Source of the DNA: Bacteroidota bacterium
GTDB lineage: Bacteria > Bacteroidota > Bacteroidia > Chitinophagales > Chitinophagaceae
DNA length: 64,000 nt
Assembly: GCA_028875875.1 (NCBI GenBank)
Contig: JAGWUV010000019.1
Location: 1-64,000, forward strand
Reading direction: 5' to 3'
Each line of letters starts with the position of its first letter. Within the stretch, counting starts at the first letter, position 1. Positions 22,421-62,597 of the stretch are shown piece by piece. A program made the position numbers and the translations under genes. Under the pieces are notes generated by a model. The model was given only the letters and a program-made list of their open reading frames with translations. It ran no database searches and had not been told where the DNA came from.

Positions 22421-22843
22421 TTATTTTCTTTCAACCAGCCATTTCACAGCAAGTTCATACCCTTGCAAACCCAGGCCAATAATGCTTCCTGCGGCTTTAG
22501 CCGATACATGAGATATCTTCCTGAACTCTTCCCTTGCATGTACGTTCGAAATGTGTACTTCAACAACGGGTGCCTTGATCGCAGCAATAGCATCACCAAT
22601 GGCTACTGAAGTATGCGTATAACCTCCCGGGTTCATTACAATGCCATCAAATTCAAAACCTACACGCTGCAATTCGTTGATCAACTCTCCTTCCACATTG
22701 CTTTGAAAATAGCTGAACGTCACAGTAGGAAAAGCAGTTTTCAATGTTTCAAAATACTCCTCAAACGATGTATTTCCGTACACTCCCGGCTCTCTCTTTC
22801 CTAAGAGATTTAAGTTAGGGCCATTGATGATCGCTATTTTCAT
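22421..22843 (-). CDS. aroQ: 3-dehydroquinate dehydratase, type II
   Basis: A 140-residue cytosolic enzyme of the shikimate pathway that dehydrates 3-dehydroquinate to 3-dehydroshikimate. The start MKIAIINGPNLNLLGKREP is the type II signature. The GVYGN segment carries the catalytic Tyr. VMNPGGYTHTSVA binds substrate, and VEVHISNVHAREEFR supplies the catalytic His and Arg. The upstream TTG at 22852 would add three residues; the ATG at 22843 fits the family. A structured intergenic region (22877-23048) lies between carA and this gene. Confidence 0.95.
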   Translation of the reverse strand: MKIAIINGPNLNLLGKREPGVYGNTSFEEYFETLKTAFPTVTFSYFQSNVEGELINELQRVGFEFDGIVMNPGGYTHTSVAIGDAIAAIKAPVVEVHISNVHAREEFRKISHVSAKAAGSIIGLGLQGYELAVKWLVERK

Positions 22844-22876
22844 CTGCAACAATTTTAAGCTTTAGCCTATAAAACT

Positions 22877-22932: not shown

Positions 22933-22961
22933 GTTCCAATCACTTGGTGATTGTATTATTT

Positions 22962-23048
22962 TGATACCAGGTTTAGTATTTCATGGCATCGTTCCTTGCG
23001 TCGCAATCCTTTCATCTGCATCACTTCGTGCAGCTTATCACTGTACTA
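22962..23048 (-). repeat. Degenerate copy (f) of the two-box intergenic repeat
   Basis: On the minus strand, TTGCGACGCAAG (core at 22995-23008 region) is followed after 23 bases by CCTGGTATCA (22962-22971). The core TGCGACGCA is shared exactly with the other five copies, and the spacing to the second box falls in the same range. An AGTACA block lies further upstream than usual, near 23043-23048, separated from the core by extra hairpin-forming sequence. Confidence 0.5.
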
Positions 23049-23067: not shown

Positions 23068-24168
23068 TTAGTTCTTATTCATCATCGCAACAAAGTTGTC
23101 AAATAAATATCTTGAATCATGCGGACCAGGAGTAGATTCAGGGTGATATTGTACACTGAATGCAGGCTTATCTTTCAAGCGTATACCCTCAATACTTTCA
23201 TCATTCAGGTTCACATGTGTTACCTCAACATTCGGATGATTACGTACCGCTTCAGGATCAACACCAAATCCATGGTTCTGTGTAGTAATCTCACACTGGC
23301 CGGTAATAATATTTTTTACAGGATGGTTCAGTCCCCTATGGCCGTGGTGCATTTTAAAAGTAGGAATACCATTCGCCAAAGCTAACAACTGATGGCCCAG
23401 GCAAATTCCAAACACAGGCTTATTTTCATTCAATAATCCCTTTACTGTTTCAACCGCATAAGGTAATGCCGCCGGATCACCAGGACCATTAGAGATGAAA
23501 TATCCGTTTGCATTAAACTCTTTCAAACGGGCTAAGCTTGTGCTCGCCGGGTGTACCCTTACATAAGCACCACGTTCTACCAGACAATTCAAGATATTCC
23601 TTTTTACCCCAAAATCAAGTACAGCAACTCTTAACGCGGCATTCACATCACCCAACTCATATTCTTTTGTTGTACTTACTTCACTGGCCAGATCAAGTCC
23701 GTCCATATTTGGGCACTTGGCCAGTTCTTTCTTCAATACTTCAATATCCAATATTTCAGAAGAAATGATACAGTTCATAGCACCTTTGGTTCTGATATGT
23801 GCTACGAGGGCTCTTGTATCAACATCCTCTATTGCAATAATATTATTAGCAACCAGGTATTCTTGCAAGGAGCCGTTTGCCTGAATACGACTGTACTGTT
23901 CTTCAAGATTTCGGCCTATCAACCCCCTGATCTTTACACTATTACTTTCTACATCAGAATTTTTTACACCATAGTTTCCGATGTGAACTTTATTCATAAT
24001 CAATACCTGTCCGGTATAACTTGGGTCTGTAAAGACTTCCTGGTAACCGGTCATCCCCGTATTGAAGCATATTTCTCCGGAGGTTGTACCTTTTTGTCCG
24101 AAGGAAAAACCATAAAATACGTGGCCGTCTTCCAATAATAAAACTGCGGGTTGCTTAGTGTTGGGCAT
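23068..24168 (-). CDS. carA: Carbamoyl-phosphate synthase small (glutaminase) subunit
   Basis: A 366-residue enzyme subunit that releases ammonia from glutamine for carbamoyl phosphate, used in pyrimidine and arginine synthesis. The CPSase small-chain domain is at about 6-135 (FNTGMTGYQEVFTDPSY). The class I glutamine amidotransferase domain is at about 180-360, with the nucleophile Cys256 in GICLGHQ, and the His-Glu pair in VQYHPEST. It follows rplQ on the same strand after a terminator, an order common in Bacteroidota. The large subunit carB is not in the window. Confidence 0.96.
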   Translation of the reverse strand: MPNTKQPAVLLLEDGHVFYGFSFGQKGTTSGEICFNTGMTGYQEVFTDPSYTGQVLIMNKVHIGNYGVKNSDVESNSVKIRGLIGRNLEEQYSRIQANGSLQEYLVANNIIAIEDVDTRALVAHIRTKGAMNCIISSEILDIEVLKKELAKCPNMDGLDLASEVSTTKEYELGDVNAALRVAVLDFGVKRNILNCLVERGAYVRVHPASTSLARLKEFNANGYFISNGPGDPAALPYAVETVKGLLNENKPVFGICLGHQLLALANGIPTFKMHHGHRGLNHPVKNIITGQCEITTQNHGFGVDPEAVRNHPNVEVTHVNLNDESIEGIRLKDKPAFSVQYHPESTPGPHDSRYLFDNFVAMMNKN

Positions 24169-25934: not shown

Positions 25935-26050
25935 TTTTAACTCCGTATTTTTTTGATTGATTGATATTGTTACCGGCTTCTGCACTTGTAGCATCGGCGG
26001 TTGTGTCACTCACTTGTACGTCCCAAACTATACTCAGCTAAGCGTTAGGC

Positions 26051-26656
26051 TTACTTAGAGTACAATTCTACGATCAGTTGTTCCTTGATGTTTTCAGGAA
26101 CACTTTCTCTTTCAGGATAAGTGATAAATGTACCTTTCTTCTCAGTTTCATTCCAGTCTACCCAGCTGAACTTAGGGTTCTTGCCACGAGACTTACTGGT
26201 GATAGAAGAATTACCTTCACTCTTTGCTTTATAAGCAATGATATCACCGGGTTTGCATGAATAAGAAGGAACATTCATTATCTCACCGTTAACGGTAATG
26301 TGTTTGTGAGCAACTAACTGCCTTGCTTCGGGTCGAGAAGCTACTAACCCTAAACGGTAAACCACATTATCTAAACGGGCTTCCAATAATTTGATCAGGT
26401 TTTCACCGGTAACACCTTTTAAGCGGGCAGCTTCTTCAAATGTTTTACGGAATTGACGCTCCAATACACCGTACGTGTATTTGGCCTTTTGTTTTTCTTT
26501 CAGCTGTAAAGCATACTCGCCAAGGCTTTTACGCTTACGAGCAGCACCATGCTGACCGGGAGGGTTGCTGTTTTTAGTCAACCATTTTCCGTTGCCTAAA
26601 ATGGGCTCACCGAAAATTCTGGAGATTTTGGTCTTTGGACCAGTGTAACGTGCCAT
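26051..26656 (-). CDS. rpsD: 30S ribosomal protein S4
   Basis: A 201-residue small-subunit assembly protein that binds 16S rRNA. The start MARYTGPKTKISRIFGEP and the NPPGQHGAARKRKSLGEYALQ segment are typical, and the S4 RNA-binding domain (RLDNVVYRLGLVASRPEARQ) starts at about residue 92. The N-terminal zinc-binding cysteines of some S4 proteins are absent (C-minus type). A gap of 164 bases with a terminator-like hairpin separates it from rpsK. Confidence 0.97.
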   Translation of the reverse strand: MARYTGPKTKISRIFGEPILGNGKWLTKNSNPPGQHGAARKRKSLGEYALQLKEKQKAKYTYGVLERQFRKTFEEAARLKGVTGENLIKLLEARLDNVVYRLGLVASRPEARQLVAHKHITVNGEIMNVPSYSCKPGDIIAYKAKSEGNSSITSKSRGKNPKFSWVDWNETEKKGTFITYPERESVPENIKEQLIVELYSK

Positions 26657-42245: not shown

Positions 42246-43157
42246 TCATCGAACTTCTTTCAACTCTACTTTTTTACTACCTACATTAAGTTCGTACTCT
42301 ACACCGATTTTCAAGGCATAATTGTTTGTTGCATGACTAACAGGAAAATCAAAACAAACAGGATAGGCATATTCTTTAACATGATGATGAATAACAGAAA
42401 GTACTTCTTCGCCAAAAGGGATAACCGTATCTTTCATTTCCGTAAAACCGCCAATAATAAGCCCTGCAAGGTTTTGCAGCATCCCACTTCTTTTTAATTG
42501 GATCATCATTCGGTCTACGTTGTAAATATATTCGCCTACATCTTCCAAAAATAAAATCGCATTCTTGGTTTGATAAGCCGATACCGATCCTATACTATGT
42601 GCCAACAAGGATAAATTTCCTCCGACTAAAGCTCCACTTGCCTTTCCTGATCTGTTTAACACATGAACATCACATGCATACTTAGCACTAACGCCCCGCA
42701 ATGCTTTTTTCAATGATTGAACAAATTCATTCTCAGAACCGCCATCATTAAAAGCAGCCGCCATGGGTGCATGCAGCGTTGCAATTTTAAGCTTTTGATA
42801 AATATGAGCGTGCAATAACGTGATATCACTAAAACCAATGATCCACTTGGGCTTTTTCTTAAATTTCTTAAAATCAATTGCATCAATGATCCTGCTCAGT
42901 CCATAACCACCGCGGGCACAAAGCACAGCATTCACCATATTATCATCGAGCATTTCCTGTAGGTCTTGTAATCGCTCGTCATCCGTACCCGAAAAATAAT
43001 GAAACTGGCTACCCAAGGTTTTGCCTATCTTAACCTTATAACCCCACTGCTGCAACACTTCTATACAGGTCTTTGCCTTTTCAAAGGGCATATACCCGGA
43101 AGGGCAAACGATGGCAATGGTATCTCCTTTTTTAAGGTATGGCGGAATGGTGATCAT
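42246..43157 (-). CDS. LD-carboxypeptidase, peptidase family S66
   Basis: A 303-residue serine peptidase of the LdcA/MccF family. It begins with PPYLKKGDTIAIVCPSGYMP, has the VLCARGGYGLSRIIDAID region characteristic of the S66 active-site loop, GGNLSLLAHSIGS, FLEDVGEYIYNVDRM with the catalytic Glu candidate, and DFPVSHATNN with the His. It trims the terminal D-Ala from tetrapeptides in peptidoglycan recycling, in the cytoplasm. Divergent from metG; 134 bases separate the two starts. Confidence 0.92.
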   Translation of the reverse strand: MITIPPYLKKGDTIAIVCPSGYMPFEKAKTCIEVLQQWGYKVKIGKTLGSQFHYFSGTDDERLQDLQEMLDDNMVNAVLCARGGYGLSRIIDAIDFKKFKKKPKWIIGFSDITLLHAHIYQKLKIATLHAPMAAAFNDGGSENEFVQSLKKALRGVSAKYACDVHVLNRSGKASGALVGGNLSLLAHSIGSVSAYQTKNAILFLEDVGEYIYNVDRMMIQLKRSGMLQNLAGLIIGGFTEMKDTVIPFGEEVLSVIHHHVKEYAYPVCFDFPVSHATNNYALKIGVEYELNVGSKKVELKEVR

Positions 43158-43205: not shown

Positions 43206-43235
43206 CAATCCTTCTTTGCCGCCATTTGCTCAACA

Positions 43236-43286
43236 GTACAAGTGTGCGACGCAACGAAGCTGATTACAGAACAAAAGACGGTTACC
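43236..43286 (+). repeat. Copy (a) of the two-box intergenic repeat, metG leader
   Basis: Box 1 is GTACAAGTGTGCGACGCAAC (43236-43255); box 2 is GACGGTTACC (43277-43286), 21 bases later. Box 2 ends 5 bases before the metG ATG, so the element lies in the untranslated leader in the direction of the gene. Confidence 0.8.
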
Positions 43287-43291
43287 TAAAC

Positions 43292-45406
43292 ATGACAACT
43301 CCTAAAAGATACCTGGTTACATCGGCATTACCTTATGCCAACGGCTTAAAACATATTGGCCATTTGGCCGGTGCCTATATTCCGGCTGATATTTATGTTC
43401 GTTACCTGAAAGCCCAGCAACGCGATGTAGTGTTTGTTTGCGGTAGTGATGAACACGGAACAGCCATTCCGATACAGGCGATGAAGGAGGGTACAACAGC
43501 TCAGTCCATCATTGACAAATACCACCCGATCATTGAACAAAACTTCAAAGATCTCGGTATTCAGTTTGATATTTACCACAGAACCTCTGCGCCTATTCAT
43601 CACGAAACAGCACAGGAATTTTTTTCAGTGCTGAACAATAACGGAGACCTTGAAATAAAGGAAACAGAGCAGTATTATGATGAAGAAGCTAAAACCTTCT
43701 TGGCTGACAGGTTTATTAAAGGCACCTGCCCGAATTGCGGTCATGATAGTGCTTTTGGCGACCAATGTGAAAAATGCGGCAAGAGCCTGAGCCCGGATGA
43801 ACTGATCAACCCAATCTCTACATTAAGCGGCAAAGCACCGGTGAAAAAAGCTACCAAACATTGGTACCTGCCATTGAATAAACATGAAGATTTTTTACGT
43901 GAGTGGATTTTGAAAGAACATAAAGATGATTGGAGAAGCACTGTAGTGGGGCAATGCAAAAGCTGGATTGATGGCGGCCTGCAACCACGTGCCGTTACAA
44001 GAGATCTTGACTGGGGTATTAAAGTTCCGGTGAAAGATGCGGAAGGAAAAGTGCTGTATGTTTGGTTCGATGCACCCATCGGCTACATTTCTGCCACCAA
44101 GCAATGGGCATTAGACAATGAAAAAGACTGGAAGCCTTACTGGTATGATGCAGATACCAAAATGGTACATTTTATCGGGAAAGATAACATCGTATTCCAT
44201 TGTATCATCTTCCCGGTAATGCTGAAACTGCATGGTAATATTTTACCGGCCAATGTTCCTGCCAATGAGTTTATGAATCTGGAAGGAGATAAAATGAGTA
44301 CCAGCAGGGGATGGAGCATTGAAATGGATGATTACATTAACGACTGGATAAAAAAAGATAATGGCGGTGCTGCCATGGCAGATGTGCTGCGTTATTATTT
44401 AACACAAATTGCTCCTGAAACAAAAGATAGTGAGTTTACCTGGAAAGGTTTCCAGGATGCCAACAACAGCGAGTTGGTAAGCATATTTGGAAATTTCGTG
44501 AACAGAACTTTTGTGCTGATGCATAAGCTATGCAATGGCAAAGTACCTCCCTTCCACAATGATTTAATTGATGATACTGATAAAGAATTAATAGCAAACA
44601 TCAAGCAAACTACCGCAACAGTTGAACGCTTGCTGGAAGACTATAAATTCCGTGAAGCATTGTTTGAAGTGATTGATTTAGCTAGAAAAGGAAATCAATA
44701 CCTGCAAAAGAAAGAGCCCTGGAAAAAAGTAGCAACCGGTGAACAACAACTAATAGATAACAGTTTACACCTTTGCTTACAATTAACTGCCAACCTGGCT
44801 ATTCTTATCAACCCGTTCTTACCCTTCACAGCACAAAAAATGCTGCACATGATGAAGGTGGTAGAAAAAATGCTGGAATGGCAAAATGCGGGTTCTCTAA
44901 ATTTGTTGAGAACAGGCTACAGTTTACGTGCTCCTGAATTGTTATTCAGAAAAATAGAAGATGAAGAGATTACGGCACAATTAGAAAAGTTGAAACAGAA
45001 GTCAGCCGCTAACCGTCAACCGTCAACTGATAATCAAAACGAAGCAGCTAGTGCAAAAAAGGAAACACAAAACCTGAAACCAGAAATCGTGTTCGATGAT
45101 TTTGCCAAGATAGATCTTCGTATTGGAACCATTGTGGCAGCAGAGAAAGTGGAGAAAGCAGATAAACTGCTGAAACTATCGGTAGATCTGGGTTTTGAAA
45201 CAAGAACCATTGTTTCAGGGATTGCCCTTCATTTTAAACCGGAAGAAATCGTAGGCAAACAAGTTACTGTTGTTGTAAACCTTGCTCCCCGCAAAATGCG
45301 AGGCATTGAAAGCAACGGTATGATATTGATGGCTGAAGATCAAAGTGGGAAACTACATTTCGTAAATCCTGCCTCCCCTATTAATAACGGAAGCACAGTA
45401 AGCTAA
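43292..45406 (+). CDS. metG: Methionyl-tRNA synthetase
   Basis: A 704-residue class I synthetase. The catalytic domain begins RYLVTSALPYANGLKHIGHL (HIGH motif), has a zinc knuckle CPNCGHDSAFGDQCEKCGK, and KMSTS near residue 335. A helical anticodon-binding domain follows (about 370-560). After a low-complexity linker (about 568-598) comes a C-terminal Trbp111-like tRNA-binding domain (FAKIDLRIGTIVAAEKVEKA) that promotes dimerisation. The ATG at 43292 is chosen; the frame from 43226 would translate the intergenic repeat. Confidence 0.97.
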   Translation: MTTPKRYLVTSALPYANGLKHIGHLAGAYIPADIYVRYLKAQQRDVVFVCGSDEHGTAIPIQAMKEGTTAQSIIDKYHPIIEQNFKDLGIQFDIYHRTSAPIHHETAQEFFSVLNNNGDLEIKETEQYYDEEAKTFLADRFIKGTCPNCGHDSAFGDQCEKCGKSLSPDELINPISTLSGKAPVKKATKHWYLPLNKHEDFLREWILKEHKDDWRSTVVGQCKSWIDGGLQPRAVTRDLDWGIKVPVKDAEGKVLYVWFDAPIGYISATKQWALDNEKDWKPYWYDADTKMVHFIGKDNIVFHCIIFPVMLKLHGNILPANVPANEFMNLEGDKMSTSRGWSIEMDDYINDWIKKDNGGAAMADVLRYYLTQIAPETKDSEFTWKGFQDANNSELVSIFGNFVNRTFVLMHKLCNGKVPPFHNDLIDDTDKELIANIKQTTATVERLLEDYKFREALFEVIDLARKGNQYLQKKEPWKKVATGEQQLIDNSLHLCLQLTANLAILINPFLPFTAQKMLHMMKVVEKMLEWQNAGSLNLLRTGYSLRAPELLFRKIEDEEITAQLEKLKQKSAANRQPSTDNQNEAASAKKETQNLKPEIVFDDFAKIDLRIGTIVAAEKVEKADKLLKLSVDLGFETRTIVSGIALHFKPEEIVGKQVTVVVNLAPRKMRGIESNGMILMAEDQSGKLHFVNPASPINNGSTVS

Positions 45407-45481: not shown

Positions 45482-46147
45482 TTAAGCTTTGTCAAAGCTC
45501 ACACACTCTTTCAGTTCTTTTTCAGAATAACTTAAGCCATATTGTTTCAATACATCATCAGGTACACCGTTCCATTGGTTAGGCTGGTTACCGGCATAAC
45601 CTATATCCTTTACACCCATTTCAGATGTATAAAAACCTGTGGCAACAATGTTCCTTAACGTATTAAAAAAGGCAACACCCTGCGCCAACTCAGGTTTGGC
45701 TTTTTCAGGCCAGGCAATATCATCTACCACCTGCATCTGCTGCTGGTGATCGCAACTGATGAATGGTTTTTCGAATCGTTTTAAACATTGCAGATCCAAC
45801 CAGCGTAACCCGCCTTTCAATGGTGTTTGCAACTCAGTTTTCTCCTTCACAATAAAAGCTATGAAGTCGTGTACCTTTGCATCCGAAGCACTTCCACTAA
45901 TCTCATCTTTCGGAATAATAATATCTTCCAGTACAATGATCGTTTTCATTTCATGATCAGTAAAGAAAGCAGGTTCAGCCATCACTTTATCGTAAGCGGC
46001 CTTTTCTTCCTGCATCCGGTTTAACCCTGCAAAAGCATCGGCCTTGGCATCAGGGTGTTGATCACCATTGGTTTTGCAGGCTTCCAGCACAGCTCCCGCT
46101 GAAAGTGTTCCGATCACCAATGCTTTAATGGATTTTCGTCTGTCCAT
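45482..46147 (-). CDS. Gluconate 2-dehydrogenase subunit 3-like protein
   Basis: A 221-residue exported small subunit of a membrane-bound GMC-type dehydrogenase. It begins MDRRKSIKALVIGTLSAGAV and ends the leader at LEAC, so it looks like a twin-arginine signal with a lipobox. The DUF1955/gluconate dehydrogenase subunit 3 pattern follows: FFTDHEMKTIIVLEDIIIPKD, then HDFIAFIVKEK. It probably helps export and anchor the FAD subunit encoded directly upstream. A repeat element lies in the 87-base gap between the two genes. Confidence 0.85.
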   Translation of the reverse strand: MDRRKSIKALVIGTLSAGAVLEACKTNGDQHPDAKADAFAGLNRMQEEKAAYDKVMAEPAFFTDHEMKTIIVLEDIIIPKDEISGSASDAKVHDFIAFIVKEKTELQTPLKGGLRWLDLQCLKRFEKPFISCDHQQQMQVVDDIAWPEKAKPELAQGVAFFNTLRNIVATGFYTSEMGVKDIGYAGNQPNQWNGVPDDVLKQYGLSYSEKELKECVSFDKA

Positions 46148-46160
46148 AATTTCTTTTTTA

Positions 46161-46213
46161 GGTTACCAACTTGGGTAAGTTATTTCGGCAACTGTTGCGT
46201 CGCACTCTTCTAC
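46161..46213 (-). repeat. Copy (c) of the two-box intergenic repeat
   Basis: On the minus strand box 1 ends GTAGAAGAGTGCGACGCAAC (46194-46213, one base different from consensus) and box 2 is GTTGGTAACC (46161-46170), 23 bases later. The element fills the gap between the GMC oxidoreductase and subunit 3 genes, in their direction, ending 13 bases before the subunit 3 ATG. Confidence 0.75.
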
Positions 46214-46234
46214 TGCAGCAACAATAGCAACTGT

Positions 46235-47974
46235 TTATAAATTATGTTTCTTCATTTCATCAACAATGAATTCGCTTGTACGCATAGACAACGCAAGGAT
46301 CGTCCATGTGATATTCTTATCCGCCTGCGAAACAAACGGGCCACCATCTACGCAGAATAAGTTTTTACAATCATGTGCCTGGCACCATTTATTCAAAGCC
46401 GATGTTTTAGGATCATTACCCATCCGCACCGTTCCTGCTTCATGAATAATATTTCCCGGATTGGATAACCCGTAATTATTATGCGGACCATCATCATCTC
46501 CCCATGTTATTACAGCTCCCATTTCATGCATGATCTCACGAAATGTTTCTTTCATATGTTTCGCCTGCTTAATCTCATAATCACTCCATGAAGTATTAAA
46601 TCTCAAAACAGGAATGCCATATTTATCAACTGTACTCGGATCTATTTCGCAATAGCTATCCCTTCTCGCAATACCTTCGCCTCTTCCTGCCATACCCACA
46701 CTTGCCCCGTAAAAGAAACGGTAGTCTTCTTTCAGCGAAGCACCGTAACCTCCGGCCTCTTTCTTTTTCCCGTTCACTACATACTTACCATTCATGTTTT
46801 GCACGTTCCATCCAAAACCATAGGCTGGTTGTTCCATACCTCCCCAATATTCAATATGATAACCACGGGGGAAATCTAATTTTTTATTATCCAGCCACCA
46901 GGGTGTGTACACATGCATACCGCCCACCCCATCTTCGTTGTACCGTTTTCTTCCGAATAATTGTGGCAATACGCCACCAATTGCAGCACCTGTAGAATCG
47001 TGCAGGTATCTTCCCACTACATCGCTTGAATTGGCAAGTCCGTTAGGATGGCGCTGCGATTTGGAATTGAGCATTAAACGGGCACTCTCACAGGCACTGG
47101 CTGCCAGGATAACGGTTCTACCCATCACCTGGTATTCCTGCATATCAGTTTTATTGATATAAGAAACACCGGTAGCCAGCCCATCTTTATTGGTAAGCAC
47201 TTCACGGGCCATGGCTTGGGTAACAAGATCTACATTACCCGTTTCTAGTGCAGGTTTAATGAGTACGGATGAAGAAGAAAAATCGCCGTATATTTTACAG
47301 CTTCTGCCGCATTGACCACAGAAAAAACATTGTCCTCTTTCTTTGTTAACAGGTTTTGTTAAGATAGACAACCGGGAAGGTATAACAGGTATATTAATGC
47401 CAGTTGCTGCTTTTTTGATCATTAATTCATGCAACCTTGGTTTGGGGGGAGGAAGAAAAATACCATCCGGATCATTTGCCAATCCCTCGTTCGTTCCAAA
47501 TACACCAATCAGGCGATCAATCTTATCGTAATAAGGTTTGATGTCTTCATAACCTATTGGCCAATCATCTCCCAAACCATCGATACTTCTCCTTTTAAAA
47601 TCTTTTGGTCCAAAACGCAGTGATATTCTGCCCCAGTGATTGGTTCTCCCACCTACCATTCTGGCACGCCACCATTCCCACTTGGTATCATTGGCATGGG
47701 TGTAAGGCTCACCATCAATTTCCCATCCCCAGTAACAACCATCAAAATCGCCGAATGGCCTGAACTTGGTACTGGCGCCTCTTCTTGGAGACTCCCAGGG
47801 ATTTTTTAACTGGTTCGAATCTTTTGCCGGGTCAAAATCAGCTCCGGCCTCTAATAAACAAACTTTTAAACCGGCTTTGGCCAATACATAAGCGGCCATA
47901 CCGCCACCGGCTCCAGAGCCAACAATAACAGCATCGTACTGCTTGGGTTGCTTTTTAATTTGAAGATCTTCCAT
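46235..47974 (-). CDS. GMC-family FAD oxidoreductase (gluconate 2-dehydrogenase-like large subunit)
   Basis: A 579-residue flavoprotein. The FAD-binding motif is YDAVIVGSGAGGGMAAYVLA with LLEAGADF. It has the GGRTNHWGRISLRF region, a cysteine cluster FCGQCGRSCK, and the C-terminal GMC_oxred_C domain with HEAGTVRMG and the active-site His/Asn region. It oxidises a polyol or sugar acid in the periplasm and would pass electrons to the respiratory chain. Its partner subunit 3 follows on the same strand. A cytochrome c subunit, present in the three-subunit enzymes, is not in the window. The ATG at 47974 is preferred over TTG 47986. Confidence 0.88.
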   Translation of the reverse strand: MEDLQIKKQPKQYDAVIVGSGAGGGMAAYVLAKAGLKVCLLEAGADFDPAKDSNQLKNPWESPRRGASTKFRPFGDFDGCYWGWEIDGEPYTHANDTKWEWWRARMVGGRTNHWGRISLRFGPKDFKRRSIDGLGDDWPIGYEDIKPYYDKIDRLIGVFGTNEGLANDPDGIFLPPPKPRLHELMIKKAATGINIPVIPSRLSILTKPVNKERGQCFFCGQCGRSCKIYGDFSSSSVLIKPALETGNVDLVTQAMAREVLTNKDGLATGVSYINKTDMQEYQVMGRTVILAASACESARLMLNSKSQRHPNGLANSSDVVGRYLHDSTGAAIGGVLPQLFGRKRYNEDGVGGMHVYTPWWLDNKKLDFPRGYHIEYWGGMEQPAYGFGWNVQNMNGKYVVNGKKKEAGGYGASLKEDYRFFYGASVGMAGRGEGIARRDSYCEIDPSTVDKYGIPVLRFNTSWSDYEIKQAKHMKETFREIMHEMGAVITWGDDDGPHNNYGLSNPGNIIHEAGTVRMGNDPKTSALNKWCQAHDCKNLFCVDGGPFVSQADKNITWTILALSMRTSEFIVDEMKKHNL

Positions 47975-48070
47975 ATAGCCTTGCAAAATTCGTTAGATAA
48001 GCTATGAATGTATTAAATTTTGTAACGCCATTCTTTTCTTTTACAGATTAAAAAAACATGAATGAAATTA

Positions 48071-51249: not shown

Positions 51250-51287
51250 AAAACATTTTGGGAATTAATTTTCTCAAAATGTTTTTT
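51250..51287. terminator. Bidirectional intrinsic terminator
   Basis: AAAACATTTTG (51250-51260) pairs with CAAAATGTTTT (51275-51285), flanked by A and T tracts, between the convergent lipoprotein and exbD genes. The right side touches the exbD stop codon. Confidence 0.75.
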
Positions 51288-51690
51288 ATTTCACACCATT
51301 ATTATCTACTGCCATTACCGGCGTAGCACCCAGCTTCTTAATCACCTGCATTACTTTAATGGCTGTGCCAAGATGAGATGTACTATCGCCGTTAATTACT
51401 ACGGAAGGTTTATCGGTTTCTTTTGCCAGGAATTCTTTAAGCTCAAATTCCAGTTGTTCAAACGGAATGGCTTTTTGACCAATATAAATCTGCTGGTTCT
51501 TATCTACCGTGATCACCACGGTTTGTTTAGCCTTAGTATCGCTTTTCGCCTTTGGATTGGATACTTTGATCACATTAGGATTGGCCAGGGTAGATACAAT
51601 TAGAAAGAACAACAGAAGAATGAACAAAATATCATTCAATGCACCGGTATGCATTTCAGGATGTGCTCTTAATCTACTTCTTATGTTCAT
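51286..51690 (-). CDS. exbD: ExbD/TolR family biopolymer transport protein
   Basis: A 134-residue protein with a short cytoplasmic N-terminus, one membrane helix (LNDILFILLLFFLIVSTLA) that holds the conserved Asp near residue 20, and a periplasmic domain ending in VMQVIKKLGATPVMAVDN. With ExbB it forms a proton channel that energises TonB or a Tol-type partner. It lies 114 bases downstream of exbB on the same strand, with a repeat copy in between. Confidence 0.9.
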   Translation of the reverse strand: MNIRSRLRAHPEMHTGALNDILFILLLFFLIVSTLANPNVIKVSNPKAKSDTKAKQTVVITVDKNQQIYIGQKAIPFEQLEFELKEFLAKETDKPSVVINGDSTSHLGTAIKVMQVIKKLGATPVMAVDNNGVK

Positions 51691-51726
51691 TATAATTTAT
51701 TTCAAAAAGTTGAATGAAGCACCGCA

Positions 51727-51778
51727 GTACAAGAGTGCGACGCAACGATGTTTAATTTATATGCTACAGCCGGGTACC
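51727..51778 (+). repeat. Copy (b) of the two-box intergenic repeat, antisense to exbB-exbD
   Basis: Box 1 is GTACAAGAGTGCGACGCAAC (51727-51746), the consensus form; box 2 is GCCGGGTACC (51769-51778), 22 bases later. It is the only one of the six copies pointing against the neighbouring genes. Confidence 0.8.
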
Positions 51779-51804
51779 CTCTTACTAAAAAAATGCAGCA
51801 TTAT

Positions 51805-52509
51805 TTATCTTGTTGGCTCCTGCAGTACATCGATAAACTCTGCACTTGCTACTTCCATTTTATTGGCTGTTTTGTCGATCTGTGTACTTAAAAAATTATG
51901 ACCCACATATGCTATTAATCCAATGATCAAACCCGAAGCACTCGTTACCATTTTAGTGTAAATACCGCCTGCAATGGTGTTTAATGTATACTCGCCGGTG
52001 GAAGCAATGCCGTAAAACAATTGCACCATACCCACTATGGTTCCAAGAAAACCGAACATAGGGGCAATACCCGCAACGAGGGATAGAATATTCAAGTTAC
52101 GCTCCATTTTGTACATCTCCAGCTTTCCTACATTTTCCATGCTTTTTTCAATAGCATCGATGGGTTTACCAATACGCTGAATACCCTTGTCAATCATTCT
52201 TGCAACTGGATTATCCGTATTTTTTGCCAGGCTACGGGCTGCACTAATATTGCCGGTGATAATATTATCGCGTATGATACTCATGAAATTCGCTTCTATT
52301 TTAGAAGCTTTACTGATGGCCAGTAGTCGCTCAAAAAAAACAAACACAGTAGCTATAAGCAATACATACAGGGGATACATGATCCAGCCGCCCTTCTGCA
52401 ACAGATCCCACATAGAAATTTTTTCGGGCATCTGCGGTACAGCAGCCGCGGCTGCTTTATGAACTGTATCTGCAATAGTTGCAACCCCAGCCTGCAGTAT
52501 GTAAAACAT
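51805..52509 (-). CDS. exbB: ExbB/TolQ/MotA family proton channel protein
   Basis: A 234-residue inner-membrane protein with three membrane helices (about 40-60, 130-155, 170-195). The MotA/TolQ/ExbB signature is seen in SLVAGIAPMFGFLGTIVGMV and GGIYTKMVTSASGLIIGLIA. The cytoplasmic loop between helix 1 and 2 carries many charged residues. It assembles with ExbD. No tonB gene is adjacent. A terminator separates it from the SPFH gene upstream. Confidence 0.9.
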   Translation of the reverse strand: MFYILQAGVATIADTVHKAAAAAVPQMPEKISMWDLLQKGGWIMYPLYVLLIATVFVFFERLLAISKASKIEANFMSIIRDNIITGNISAARSLAKNTDNPVARMIDKGIQRIGKPIDAIEKSMENVGKLEMYKMERNLNILSLVAGIAPMFGFLGTIVGMVQLFYGIASTGEYTLNTIAGGIYTKMVTSASGLIIGLIAYVGHNFLSTQIDKTANKMEVASAEFIDVLQEPTR

Positions 52510-54976: not shown

Positions 54977-55432
54977 CTAAGGCATAATGATCAGCGGGCT
55001 ACCACCTTTAATCTCTACCAGTTCAAGATCAAATATGAGGTCTTTTCCTGCCAGCGGATGGTTAGCATCCAGTATAACCACTTCCTCTTTTACTTCTACG
55101 ATCACCACAGGAAAACTTTGTCCGGCACTATTGCTCATGCTCAGTTGCATTCCCACTTCAGGCGTCATATCTTCAGGGAAACGGTTACGTGGAAACTCCA
55201 TGATCATTTCTTCCTGTACCGGACCATACGCTTCCATAAAAGGAATATGAATTGTTTTTTTCTCCCCTACCGCCATACCTGTAACACCTTCATCAAATCC
55301 GGCGATCACCATGCCACCGCCCACTTCAAACTCAAGTGGTTCGCGGCCTGCAGACGAATCAAAGGTAGTACCATCTTCCAATTTTCCATGATAGTGGATT
55401 TTAATAGTATCACCTTTCTTAACTTGTTGCAT
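54977..55432 (-). CDS. FKBP-type peptidyl-prolyl isomerase, SlyD-like
   Basis: A 151-residue isomerase. The FKBP fold is split by an IF (insert-in-flap) domain as in SlyD: KGDTIKIHYHGKLEDGTTFD, then GMVIAGFDEGVTGMAVGEKK, and the insert (about 65-130) with EEMIMEFPRNRFPEDM, and finally HPLAGKDLIFDLELVEIK. The His-rich metal-binding tail of E. coli SlyD is absent. It has no signal peptide, so it acts on nascent or folding proteins in the cytoplasm. Confidence 0.92.
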   Translation of the reverse strand: MQQVKKGDTIKIHYHGKLEDGTTFDSSAGREPLEFEVGGGMVIAGFDEGVTGMAVGEKKTIHIPFMEAYGPVQEEMIMEFPRNRFPEDMTPEVGMQLSMSNSAGQSFPVVIVEVKEEVVILDANHPLAGKDLIFDLELVEIKGGSPLIIMP

Positions 55433-55458
55433 ACAATTTTTTTTAAGTAAAATAATTA

Positions 55459-55510
55459 AGTAACCGGCTTCTTATCTTTTCTCAGCACCTGTTGCGTCGC
55501 ACCCTTGTAC
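55459..55510 (-). repeat. Copy (d) of the two-box intergenic repeat, FKBP leader
   Basis: On the minus strand box 1 is GTACAAGGGTGCGACGCAAC (55491-55510); box 2 is GCCGGTTACT (55459-55468), 22 bases later. A possible promoter, TTG and TACTTTG 20 bases apart (55561-55590), lies upstream, so the element is likely within the transcribed leader. Confidence 0.75.
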
Positions 55511-55626
55511 AGAAGAATATCCCGCAGCAACCAATTAAAAACAACAGCCGATTAGGGTGCCAAAGTACGCCGATACTGCCAATTGCACAAGTTAAATTCA
55601 ATATCTTACAAGCCTAAATCACTGGT

Positions 55627-56877: not shown

Positions 56878-56950
56878 AGCGGAAAACGGGACTCGAACCC
56901 GCCACCTTCAGTTTGGGAAACTGATGCTCTACCGGATGAGCTATTTCCGC
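56878..56950 (-). tRNA. tRNA-Gly (anticodon CCC)
   Basis: The minus strand folds as a full cloverleaf. Acceptor arms are GCGGAAA and TTTCCGC, the D-arm has GCTC/GAGC, the anticodon arm is TCAGT-TTCCCAA-ACTGA, and the T-arm is GCGGG-TTCGAGT-CCCGT. The anticodon CCC reads glycine GGG codons and base 73 is U, as in bacterial tRNA-Gly. The CCA end is not encoded. The 3' end of the tRNA gene touches the stop codon of the namZ gene, which is on the other strand. Confidence 0.95.
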
Positions 56951-61009: not shown

Positions 61010-61477
61010 TTAAATAGTAATCTCTTCAACCTTAAATTTGATCATACCTGTTGGTGCCTGCACTTCTGCAACTTCTCCTTTAGACTTCCCCAGTAAACCT
61101 TTCCCAATAGGTGAAGAAGCAGAAATTTTTCCGGCTTTTAAATCAGCCTCTTTCTCTCCAACAATCTGGTACGTAACCGTTTTTTTAGTTGCCACATTGG
61201 TAATGGTAACCTTGGTTAATATAGCCACTCTACTCGTATCAATGGTACCCGGATCCACAATTTTGGCAGTAGCAATAGCCCCTTCTAATTGTTTAATCTT
61301 AGCTTCCAGCAAACCTTGCGCCTCCTTAGCAGAGTCATACTCAGCATTCTCTTTCAAATCACCTTTTTCACGGGCTTCCGCAATTGCTTTGGAAGCAGCC
61401 GGCCTGTCTATCGTTTTCATGCGATGAAGCTCTTCCTTCATCTTCTCAAAAGTCTCTTTAGTTACGTATTCACTCAT
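61010..61477 (-). CDS. greA: Transcription elongation factor GreA
   Basis: A 155-residue factor that rescues backtracked RNA polymerase by stimulating transcript cleavage. The N-terminal coiled coil (about 1-75) includes TKETFEKMKEELHRMKTIDR and the tip acidic residues in GDLKENAEYDSAKEAQG. The C-terminal FKBP-like domain (about 80-155) has SPIGKGLLGKSKGEVAEVQ. The ATG at 61477 gives MSEYVTKE, the family N-terminus. A promoter and a terminator-like hairpin lie in its leader. Confidence 0.96.
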   Translation of the reverse strand: MSEYVTKETFEKMKEELHRMKTIDRPAASKAIAEAREKGDLKENAEYDSAKEAQGLLEAKIKQLEGAIATAKIVDPGTIDTSRVAILTKVTITNVATKKTVTYQIVGEKEADLKAGKISASSPIGKGLLGKSKGEVAEVQAPTGMIKFKVEEITI

Positions 61478-61495
61478 AATCTTTGTTTTAAAAGA

Positions 61496-61534
61496 GATAA
61501 AAAAAATACAACGCCACAAGAACTTGCAGCGTTG
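61496..61534 (-). promoter_or_regulatory. Terminator-like attenuator in the greA leader
   Basis: In the minus-strand RNA, CAACGC (with CAAG inside) pairs with CTTG and GCGTTG, hairpin 61509-61534. The two internal UG/UG positions can form tandem wobble pairs, giving a 12-bp stem in principle. A run of eight U residues follows (61499-61506 region). The hairpin stands between the probable promoter (61544-61574) and the greA ATG at 61477. Confidence 0.65.
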
Positions 61535-61574: not shown

Positions 61575-61610
61575 TCCACAAAATGATTTTTTCCTATGTG
61601 AGCCAGACTG

Positions 61611-61649
61611 AAGTACCCCGGGCAGCTTCGTTGCGTCGCACTCTTATAC
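61611..61649 (-). repeat. Copy (e) of the two-box intergenic repeat
   Basis: On the minus strand box 1 is GTATAAGAGTGCGACGCAAC (61630-61649) and a box-2-like CCCGGGGTACTT (61611-61622) follows after only about 7 bases, shorter than in the other copies. It lies upstream of the greA promoter, so it is not in the transcript from that promoter. Confidence 0.65.
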
Positions 61650-61670
61650 ACCTTGTTCAATCATCGGCTT

Positions 61671-62597
61671 TTATATATCCAGTTTATCCAGCACTACTTT
61701 AGCCATTTTATAAAATGCTTCATGACTATACCCTGCCGTATGCGGGGTAATCAGTACATTGGATTGTTCCAACAACCAATCCAACTGTTCTTTTTCCTTA
61801 GCGCTGTAAGACGAAAGATCTTCGTTCTCCAGTACATCAAGCCCGGCCGCTTTAATTTGTTTTTGTTCCAGTGCTGCCACCAAAGCCGCTGTATCCATTA
61901 CTTTACCACGGCACATGTTCAAAAAATAAGGCTGCCGCTTCAATGCACTAAAAAATGCTGCATCGGCATAATGATACGTCTCCTCCGTTAACGGCACATG
62001 AAAACTGATCACATCGGCATAACGCTGAATTTGTTCCAGGTTAGCTTCATGAATATATCCTTTGGCAAAACCAGACACGTATTTATCATAACCCAGCACC
62101 GTCACATCGAAGGAAGCCAGCAGTTTCGCAAAAGCACTTCCGTTGTTACCAAAACCAATGATACCTACAGTTTTACCCGACAACTCATCTCCCCTGTTGG
62201 CATCACGTATCCACTTCCCTTCTTTTATTTCCTGGAAACTACTGCTGATCTTATTCATCAGGTTCAAGAGCAATCCTAAAGCATGTTCCGCCACAGCATT
62301 GCGATTCCCTTCCGGGCTGCTTACACACTTAATACCCTTGCTTGCTGCATAAGCCACATCAATTTGTTCCATACCGCTGCCCAAACGTCCTATCCACTTC
62401 AATGCCGATGCCCTATCCAACATAGCTTTATCAATGGCCAGTTTGGTGGTAACAATTAACCCTTCTGCAATATCAATGATCGCATAAAGATCATCATACT
62501 GTATACCAGGCTGATAAATCACTTCATAGCCTTTAGCATCCAGTTGTTCTAACAAAAAAGGATGGCACTTAGCCGTAAGGATCACTTTTTTCTTCAC
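61671..62597 (-). CDS. D-isomer-specific 2-hydroxyacid dehydrogenase
   Basis: A 308-residue NAD-dependent dehydrogenase. The Rossmann motif is [17 protein letters not shown] (about residue 147). Active-site residues are the Arg in NMCRGKVMD, the Glu in LDVLENED and the His in [10 protein letters not shown]. The substrate may be phosphoglycerate, glyoxylate or another 2-oxoacid; the sequence does not say, and a C-terminal ACT domain is absent. Translation starts at GTG 62597, 11 bases after the rsmA stop, so the two are probably co-transcribed. Confidence 0.88.

Follow-up and report, generated by a model that had tools for sequence, protein, structure and literature searches.

A short DNA word, termed box 1 (GTACAAGWGTGCGACGCAAC) and set in an intergenic element of about 80 bp, occurs from zero to about two thousand times per genome in one family of bacteria, the Chitinophagaceae, and is protected from mutation at most of the sites compared, so that it is probably read by an unknown DNA-binding protein. 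The window in which it was first noticed comprises the 64,000 nucleotides at positions 1 to 64,000 of contig JAGWUV010000019.1 (assembly GCA_028875875.1). According to the original prediction six intergenic sites of the window share two boxes at a fixed spacing, most of them pointing towards the next gene downstream, and this observation is confirmed. The element is, however, larger than the proposed two boxes within 50 bp, box 2 is weak, and one copy was missed.

Box 1 (GTACAAGAGTGCGACGCAAC) was found with no or one mismatch at five of the six proposed sites (43236, 51727 and, on the minus strand, 46194, 55491 and 61630), whereas 100 shuffles of the sequence gave none. The sixth site (22962-23048) shares only the core TGCGACGCAA, in the context GATGAAAGGATTGCGACGCAAG, but it is a full-length match to the profile. 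This profile HMM, which was built from 103 copies, detected seven end-to-end copies in the window with E-values of 1.3e-14 to 1.6e-8, while the next hit had an E-value of 1.5 and the reversed window gave nothing below 2.8. Judged by the ends and starts of the open reading frames all seven copies lie between genes, two of them touching a neighbour by one or two bases (the metG-like start at 43292 and the stop at 61671), and six of seven point in the direction of their 3' neighbour.

The copy at 43215-43292 (+; E 3e-13; box 1 at 43236-43255 with one mismatch) is located between a gene on the minus strand (42246-43157) and a metG-like gene starting at 43292, the latter being putatively named from its N-terminus. 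The copy at 46155-46227 (-; E 1.3e-14; box 1 at 46194-46213) lies between genes assigned by Pfam to a GMC oxidoreductase (46235-47986, -) and the gluconate 2-dehydrogenase subunit 3 (45482-46147, -). The copy at 51706-51780 (+; E 2.1e-13) carries an exact box 1 at 51727-51746 and is found between ExbB-like (51805-52509, -) and ExbD-like (51286-51690, -) genes, also according to Pfam; it points against both of them and is the one exception in orientation. The copy at 55453-55530 (-; E 2.3e-13; box 1 at 55491-55510) occupies a divergent gap and points to a gene for an FKBP-type isomerase (54977-55432, -; Pfam). The copy at 61597-61672 (-; E 2.1e-9; box 1 at 61630-61649) has a shortened spacer and lies between a 2-hydroxyacid dehydrogenase gene (61671-62597, -; Pfam) and the gene at 61010-61519 (-). 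The copy at 22956-23036 (-; E 6.7e-10) is of a variant type, GATGAAAGGAT-TGCGACGCAA, with its core at 22996-23005, and is located between carA (23068-24168, -) and a class II dehydroquinase gene (22421-22852, -; Pfam). The seventh copy, which was absent from the original prediction, is found at 25963-26041 (-; E 1.6e-8) between rpsD (26051-26656, -) and rpoA, as supported by the Pfam S4 and RpoA assignments, and has a diverged box 1, GTACAAGTGAGTGACACAAC (26000-26019).

The genome from which the window derives (G000; 3.53 Mb, 74 contigs) contains 82 copies of box 1 within three mismatches, whereas the reversed pattern has none. The 11-base core occurs 124 times within one mismatch against 27 times in the control. 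From this genome we extracted 103 distinct copies with the exact ten-base core, identical copies being counted once. Their alignment revealed a weak GCTGAATA-like stretch, a strong box 1, a spacer, a weaker AGCCGGTAAC and an A-tract. Although these copies were chosen by the exact core, only three of the 82 hits have a change in the core while the outer positions of box 1 vary freely. Few copies lie inside genes called with our own simple gene models: 37 of 385 in a survey of several records (10 of 103 in G000, 8 of 55 in genome G004 and 19 of 227 in others), 3 of 65 in a second set, and 7 of 96 in stretches of copy-rich genomes, where 79 were intergenic and 10 unresolved. A scarcity of further copies, or an equal frequency inside genes, had been named beforehand as grounds for discarding the repeat, and neither was observed.

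The element appears to be specific to the family. Of 294 genomes of the window's family 160 have a match within one mismatch and 68, counted by hand, have ten or more; single matches may be due to chance, since the reversed pattern also finds one or two in a few genomes. The highest counts are 1,972, 1,571, 1,426, 1,415, 1,119 and 889, with the strands near balance. In a sample of 296 genomes of the class, the six with a match are among the eight family members, and none of the 288 others has a match. Named records with the motif include at least Segetibacter, Terrimonas, Foetidibacter, Pinibacter, Paracnuella, Limnovirga, Lacibacter and Flavisolibacter and many records titled Chitinophagaceae. 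Within one genus (g5) 6 of 18 genomes, several of the 18 being incomplete, have no copy while two have 164 and 156. A 78-nt consensus gave no match in plasmid or phage collections. In viral contigs 21 stretches hold the 17-mer, of which by eye 13 are full elements and 8 chance matches; four of the 13 are the same region, the genes of which look phage-like by eye.

The constraint on box 1 was measured between two close species, G010 and G043. For 31 G010 copies aligned to G043 the mismatch rate was 0.017 in the core (n 300, about 5 changes), 0.044 in CAAGWG, 0.15 in the 5' half, 0.167 in the spacer, 0.176 in the box 2 region, 0.128 and 0.103 in the flanks and 0.091 farther out. The reverse comparison of 32 copies gave 0.006 (n 320), 0.031, 0.129, 0.139, 0.126, 0.119, 0.080 and 0.082, respectively. 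In these comparisons the stretch L333 and one site of the stretch L367 had no ortholog, and the partner of L350 ran off a contig and adds gaps only. Fisher's exact test on counts derived from these rates gave p 2.5e-14, and the protected footprint extends from about -9 to +10. Since the copies were chosen for an intact core in one species, the rate is that of change away from an intact copy, and at least one orthologous site has decayed (L353/L408). Consensus bases at informative columns outside box 1 change less than other bases (25 of 315 against 38 of 181), but low-information columns show a similar, smaller trend (40 of 368 against 89 of 497), so that this is only weak evidence for a weaker extended motif ending in the A-tract.

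Several sites are shared between genera. Of 30 G010 stretches retrieved, 21 match retrieved G043 element stretches, and the unmatched ones, compared using pieces of 18 of the 60 stretches of both genomes, mostly have an element, sometimes mutated, at the orthologous place; four listed places (contigs C27 and C35 of G010, C78 and C121 of G043) were left out of the retrieval by place. In the same comparison a 160-base piece proved 100% identical between L393 (G010, C28) and L367 (G043, C13), although the two species are otherwise about 91% alike, which may indicate recent transfer or contamination. Genes next to G000 elements recur next to elements of G043 and G010 more than other genes of the same stretches do: at 45% identity or more, 15 of 62 match 193 adjacent G043 genes against 3 matching 185 non-adjacent ones, and for G010 the counts are 10 against 3 of 61. 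The two sets overlap, and 1 of 11 non-adjacent G010 genes also hit a G000 adjacent gene. Side and orientation agree in 13 of 16 (G043) and 9 of 11 (G010) listed rows; the window copy at 43215 is one of the exceptions, as its neighbour 42246-43157 also lies beside an element in G010 and G043 but in the opposite relative orientation. At the shared sites inspected the core of box 1 is the same while the halves differ, sometimes switching between GCTGAATAG-type and GATGCCATGAAA-type modules. At the site upstream of ftsK (L039:4180-4260, L330 and L374) a DnaA-box-like TTATCCAC and ATCCACA flank box 1 in three genomes. Repeated insertion at a preferred place could mimic shared sites, but it does not explain the constraint between G010 and G043.

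There is also evidence of copying. Pairs of elements closer than 250 bp are divergent in 28 of 29 cases and convergent in one, with no tandem pair (p 3e-16), although none of these pairs is in G000 and single copies predominate; in stretches of copy-rich genomes 14 pairs are divergent and one convergent. Several G004 doublets seem by eye to share their centres (L211/L213/L226 and L209/L214/L215). Pairs at least 70% identical outside box 1 number 26 of 1,485 in G004, 17 of 3,160 in genomes G207, G160 and G097, 28 of 21,528 in a mixed set, 2 of 5,050 in G000 and 0 of 528 in G010, whereas shuffled columns give 0.14, 0.04, 0.02, 0.04 and 0.00, respectively; the excess is real copying in G004 and is also seen in the group g72. 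The 5' and 3' halves are unlinked in four sets (Mantel r 0.008-0.040, p at least 0.18) and weakly linked in the mixed set (0.068). In some G004 copies (L209-L228, e.g. L211:8440-8515 and the minus strand of L213 near 18958) a second repeat, CCTTCCCACCGGGAAGGTCGGGATGGGCC, or GCGCCTGACGGCGC hairpins sit directly on the 5' end of the element, and a box like CTACGCTTCGGTAAAAGCT precedes copies in several copy-rich genomes (L097, L103, L111, L117, L129, L135, L145, L419 and L423).

Taken together, our analysis shows that box 1 is kept nearly unchanged at orthologous sites of two species and that a set of sites is shared between genera while the rest of the element evolves about as fast as its flanks, that there is no conserved RNA fold and no single orientation to genes across genomes, and that copy numbers run from 0 to about 2,000 with strands near balance. 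From this we infer, with moderate confidence, that a family-specific DNA-binding protein recognises box 1 on duplex DNA around the odd dyad TGCGACGCA, with weaker help from the flanking GCTGAATA and GCCGGTAAC motifs and the A-tract, and that the site, kept by selection or drive, serves a genome-wide DNA process rather than control of the adjacent gene; both binding and function are inferred from sequence alone. The two leading uses are a REPIN-like sequence population with an unproven mobiliser and an uptake-signal-like self-recognition sequence. In this view copies were spread in part by copying of the element and of divergent doublets. The interpretation given in the original prediction, a folded RNA, a protein-binding site or a small mobile repeat, is therefore partly supported: the protein-binding site fits best, with about 20 constrained bases and a dyad core, the mobile repeat is partly supported because copying is evident although nearly all G010/G043 sites that could be compared are shared, and the folded RNA is not supported. 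A 20-base word that is protected at most compared copies, fills close to half of the intergenic gaps in sampled copy-rich stretches and was found in one family only points to an unknown DNA-binding protein with a genome-wide role.

Several findings do not fit easily. No binding protein was found, the search for co-occurring proteins being confined to Y1 transposases, and the gene clusters next to the element (at most the first 40 listed) looked like housekeeping genes by eye and gave no hint of an autoregulated binder. The absence of sites in 6 of 18 genomes of genus g5 would require loss of the protein there. Half-modules such as GATGCCATGAAA, which are shared by several genera, are not expected of a pure binding motif. 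Uptake signals explain why sites are kept whatever their neighbour and REPIN-like populations explain the copying and the doublets, but neither fits all facts.

Among the possible uses of the site, a REPIN- or MITE-like non-autonomous mobile sequence population remains the leading, though tentative, alternative. In this scenario a transposase, possibly a Y1 enzyme that some genomes have since lost or another kind, would copy the element or its divergent doublet at a low rate, box 1 would be the transposase site and copies would mostly be inherited vertically. Besides the doublets and the near-identical copies, this is in line with the range of copy numbers within one genus, with the occurrence in viral contigs, and with the region upstream of trpB (named by eye), where G004 and G033 have an element that G028, G026 and G023 lack. 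In a phage pair (L290 and L295) homology begins at the element's 5' end apart from a 52-base stretch farther upstream, and one phage has an extra small gene between divergent copies; this was the one case of a gene cassette bracketed by divergent copies. However, the protection of box 1 alone at orthologous single copies is not predicted by neutral decay, the halves are unlinked within genomes, and G010 and G043 show no clean empty site. Doublets have inverted ends but single copies do not, and no clear target duplication was seen by eye. In the part of the divergent pairs that was inspected, which did not include the Y1 loci described below, no transposase was seen, and the open reading frames look by eye like ordinary chromosomal or phage genes rather than an autonomous transposon.

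A link to Y1 transposases is unproven rather than excluded. No Y1 match was detected in G000, in G156 (1,571 copies), in G056 or in G043, and Y1 counts do not follow copy number in genus g5, where none of 30 Y1 loci holds the exact core TGCGACGCA and 2 hold a profile match. In a second set 7 of 29 loci hold the exact core and 10 a profile match, the 10 all being among 16 loci from element-bearing genomes, so that 12 of the 59 Y1 loci hold elements in total. For the 16 loci, 4.6 are expected from the copy numbers, or 6.0 to 8.8 if the profile finds 1.5 to 3 times as many copies, so that P runs from 0.001 to 0.32 and the excess is modest and model-dependent. In L448:548-2198 (G097) and L457:1129-2358 (G305) the Y1 stretch lies between two divergent copies, as RAYT genes do between REPs, the stretch in L457 being broken by stops.

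REP/REPIN sequences with RAYT transposases (PMC3116915, PMC8049555, PMC6006769) are likewise dispersed and intergenic, reach hundreds of copies or more, form inverted doublets and persist vertically for long; they differ from the element in that the latter has no stem-loop, is about 80 bp long, has one box protected at orthologous sites and lacks Y1 enzymes in some copy-rich genomes. The CGTC-tagged REPs (PMC3733652) are short repeats without a dedicated transposase that form inverted dimers and were reported in five phyla including Bacteroidetes, but they are palindromes with an unpaired CGTC at one end. In the alignment of 103 copies we found neither a GTAG nor a CGTC tag at one end, CGTC occurring only inside the core on the complementary strand, and there is no stem. 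BOX, ERIC, RUP and MITE elements are modular intergenic repeats of about 100 bp with variable flanking modules, whereas no terminal inverted repeat or target duplication was noticed in single copies of the element, and its box 1 is under constraint. In searches of an open-licence library no description of the element was found, including in PMC3733652, PMC12306157, PMC8049555 and PMC6006769; the nearest lead is a Bacteroidetes subclass of Y1 proteins whose genes are flanked by atypical structures with copies elsewhere (PMC6006769). If the element is a REPIN-like population, it may be one that persists without a RAYT.

The other leading use, proposed with low confidence, is that box 1 is a DNA-uptake (self-recognition) signal of the whole family, carried also by some of its phages and amplified to about 2,000 copies in some genera, uptake machinery preferring DNA with box 1 and transformation keeping the sites intact. 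DNA uptake sequences are described for Pasteurellaceae and Neisseria (PMC2346458). Such signals are abundant, with strands near balance, a protected core with weaker flanks and an A/T tract, and even spacing. The element shares with them a frequency far above chance on both strands and a core protected at nearly every compared site whatever the neighbour; the weaker extended motif that ends in an A-tract, the unlinked halves in four of five sets and the restriction to one family would also fit. In 18 stretches of four copy-rich genomes, 66 of 143 gaps of at least 60 bp hold an element and the spacing is somewhat more even than shuffled (CV 0.56; null mean 0.71, 95% range 0.58-0.89), but this rests on 48 spacings, and in G004 the 88 exact copies are uneven by tenths of the chromosome (p 0.0006). 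Uptake signals are often located in genes, in Haemophilus mostly so, whereas many copies inside genes are not seen here, and the 80-bp consensus, the shared half-modules, the copied doublets and the near-identical copies are unlike uptake signals. A literature search on natural competence in this family was dominated by papers on Bacteroidota in general. If box 1 were an uptake signal, it would presumably extend that phenomenon to a new phylum.

A local regulatory or chromosome-architecture site, used at each copy by a transcription factor, a terminator-type roadblock or a nucleoid protein, seems still less likely. The site-by-site conservation would agree with it, and 3' ends often abut the stop codon or terminator T-tract of an opposing gene. 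Copies in tandem gaps favour the direction of the genes in G000 (47 with and 23 against, p 0.006) and lean the same way in G010 (12 and 9) and G043 (15 and 7), but not in G004 (17 and 16) or the other records (63 and 70), so that without G010 and G043 the pooled count is 127 of 236 (p 0.27). Moreover, no shared function of the neighbouring genes is evident by eye, close to half of the gaps are occupied in copy-rich stretches, and genomes of the same genus do without the element.

A folded RNA or riboswitch-like leader is very unlikely despite the fixed box order and the position just upstream of start codons in many G000 copies, since the consensus fold is only a 5-bp stem within the core (mean z-score -0.26), the 45 strongest column pairs in 397 copies (effective 387) all lie within ten columns, so that no long-range covariation is apparent, and both orientations to genes occur. 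One G033 copy (L310, upstream of trpB) has 27-28 extra bases in the core whose ends could still pair, but as only this and one other insertion variant (L097) were noticed, a variable-length, attC-like hairpin was rejected. A short open reading frame within the element was rejected by eye because its stops vary. At gathering thresholds Rfam gave no match to the element, its only match in the window being a tRNA gene at 56878-56950 (-).
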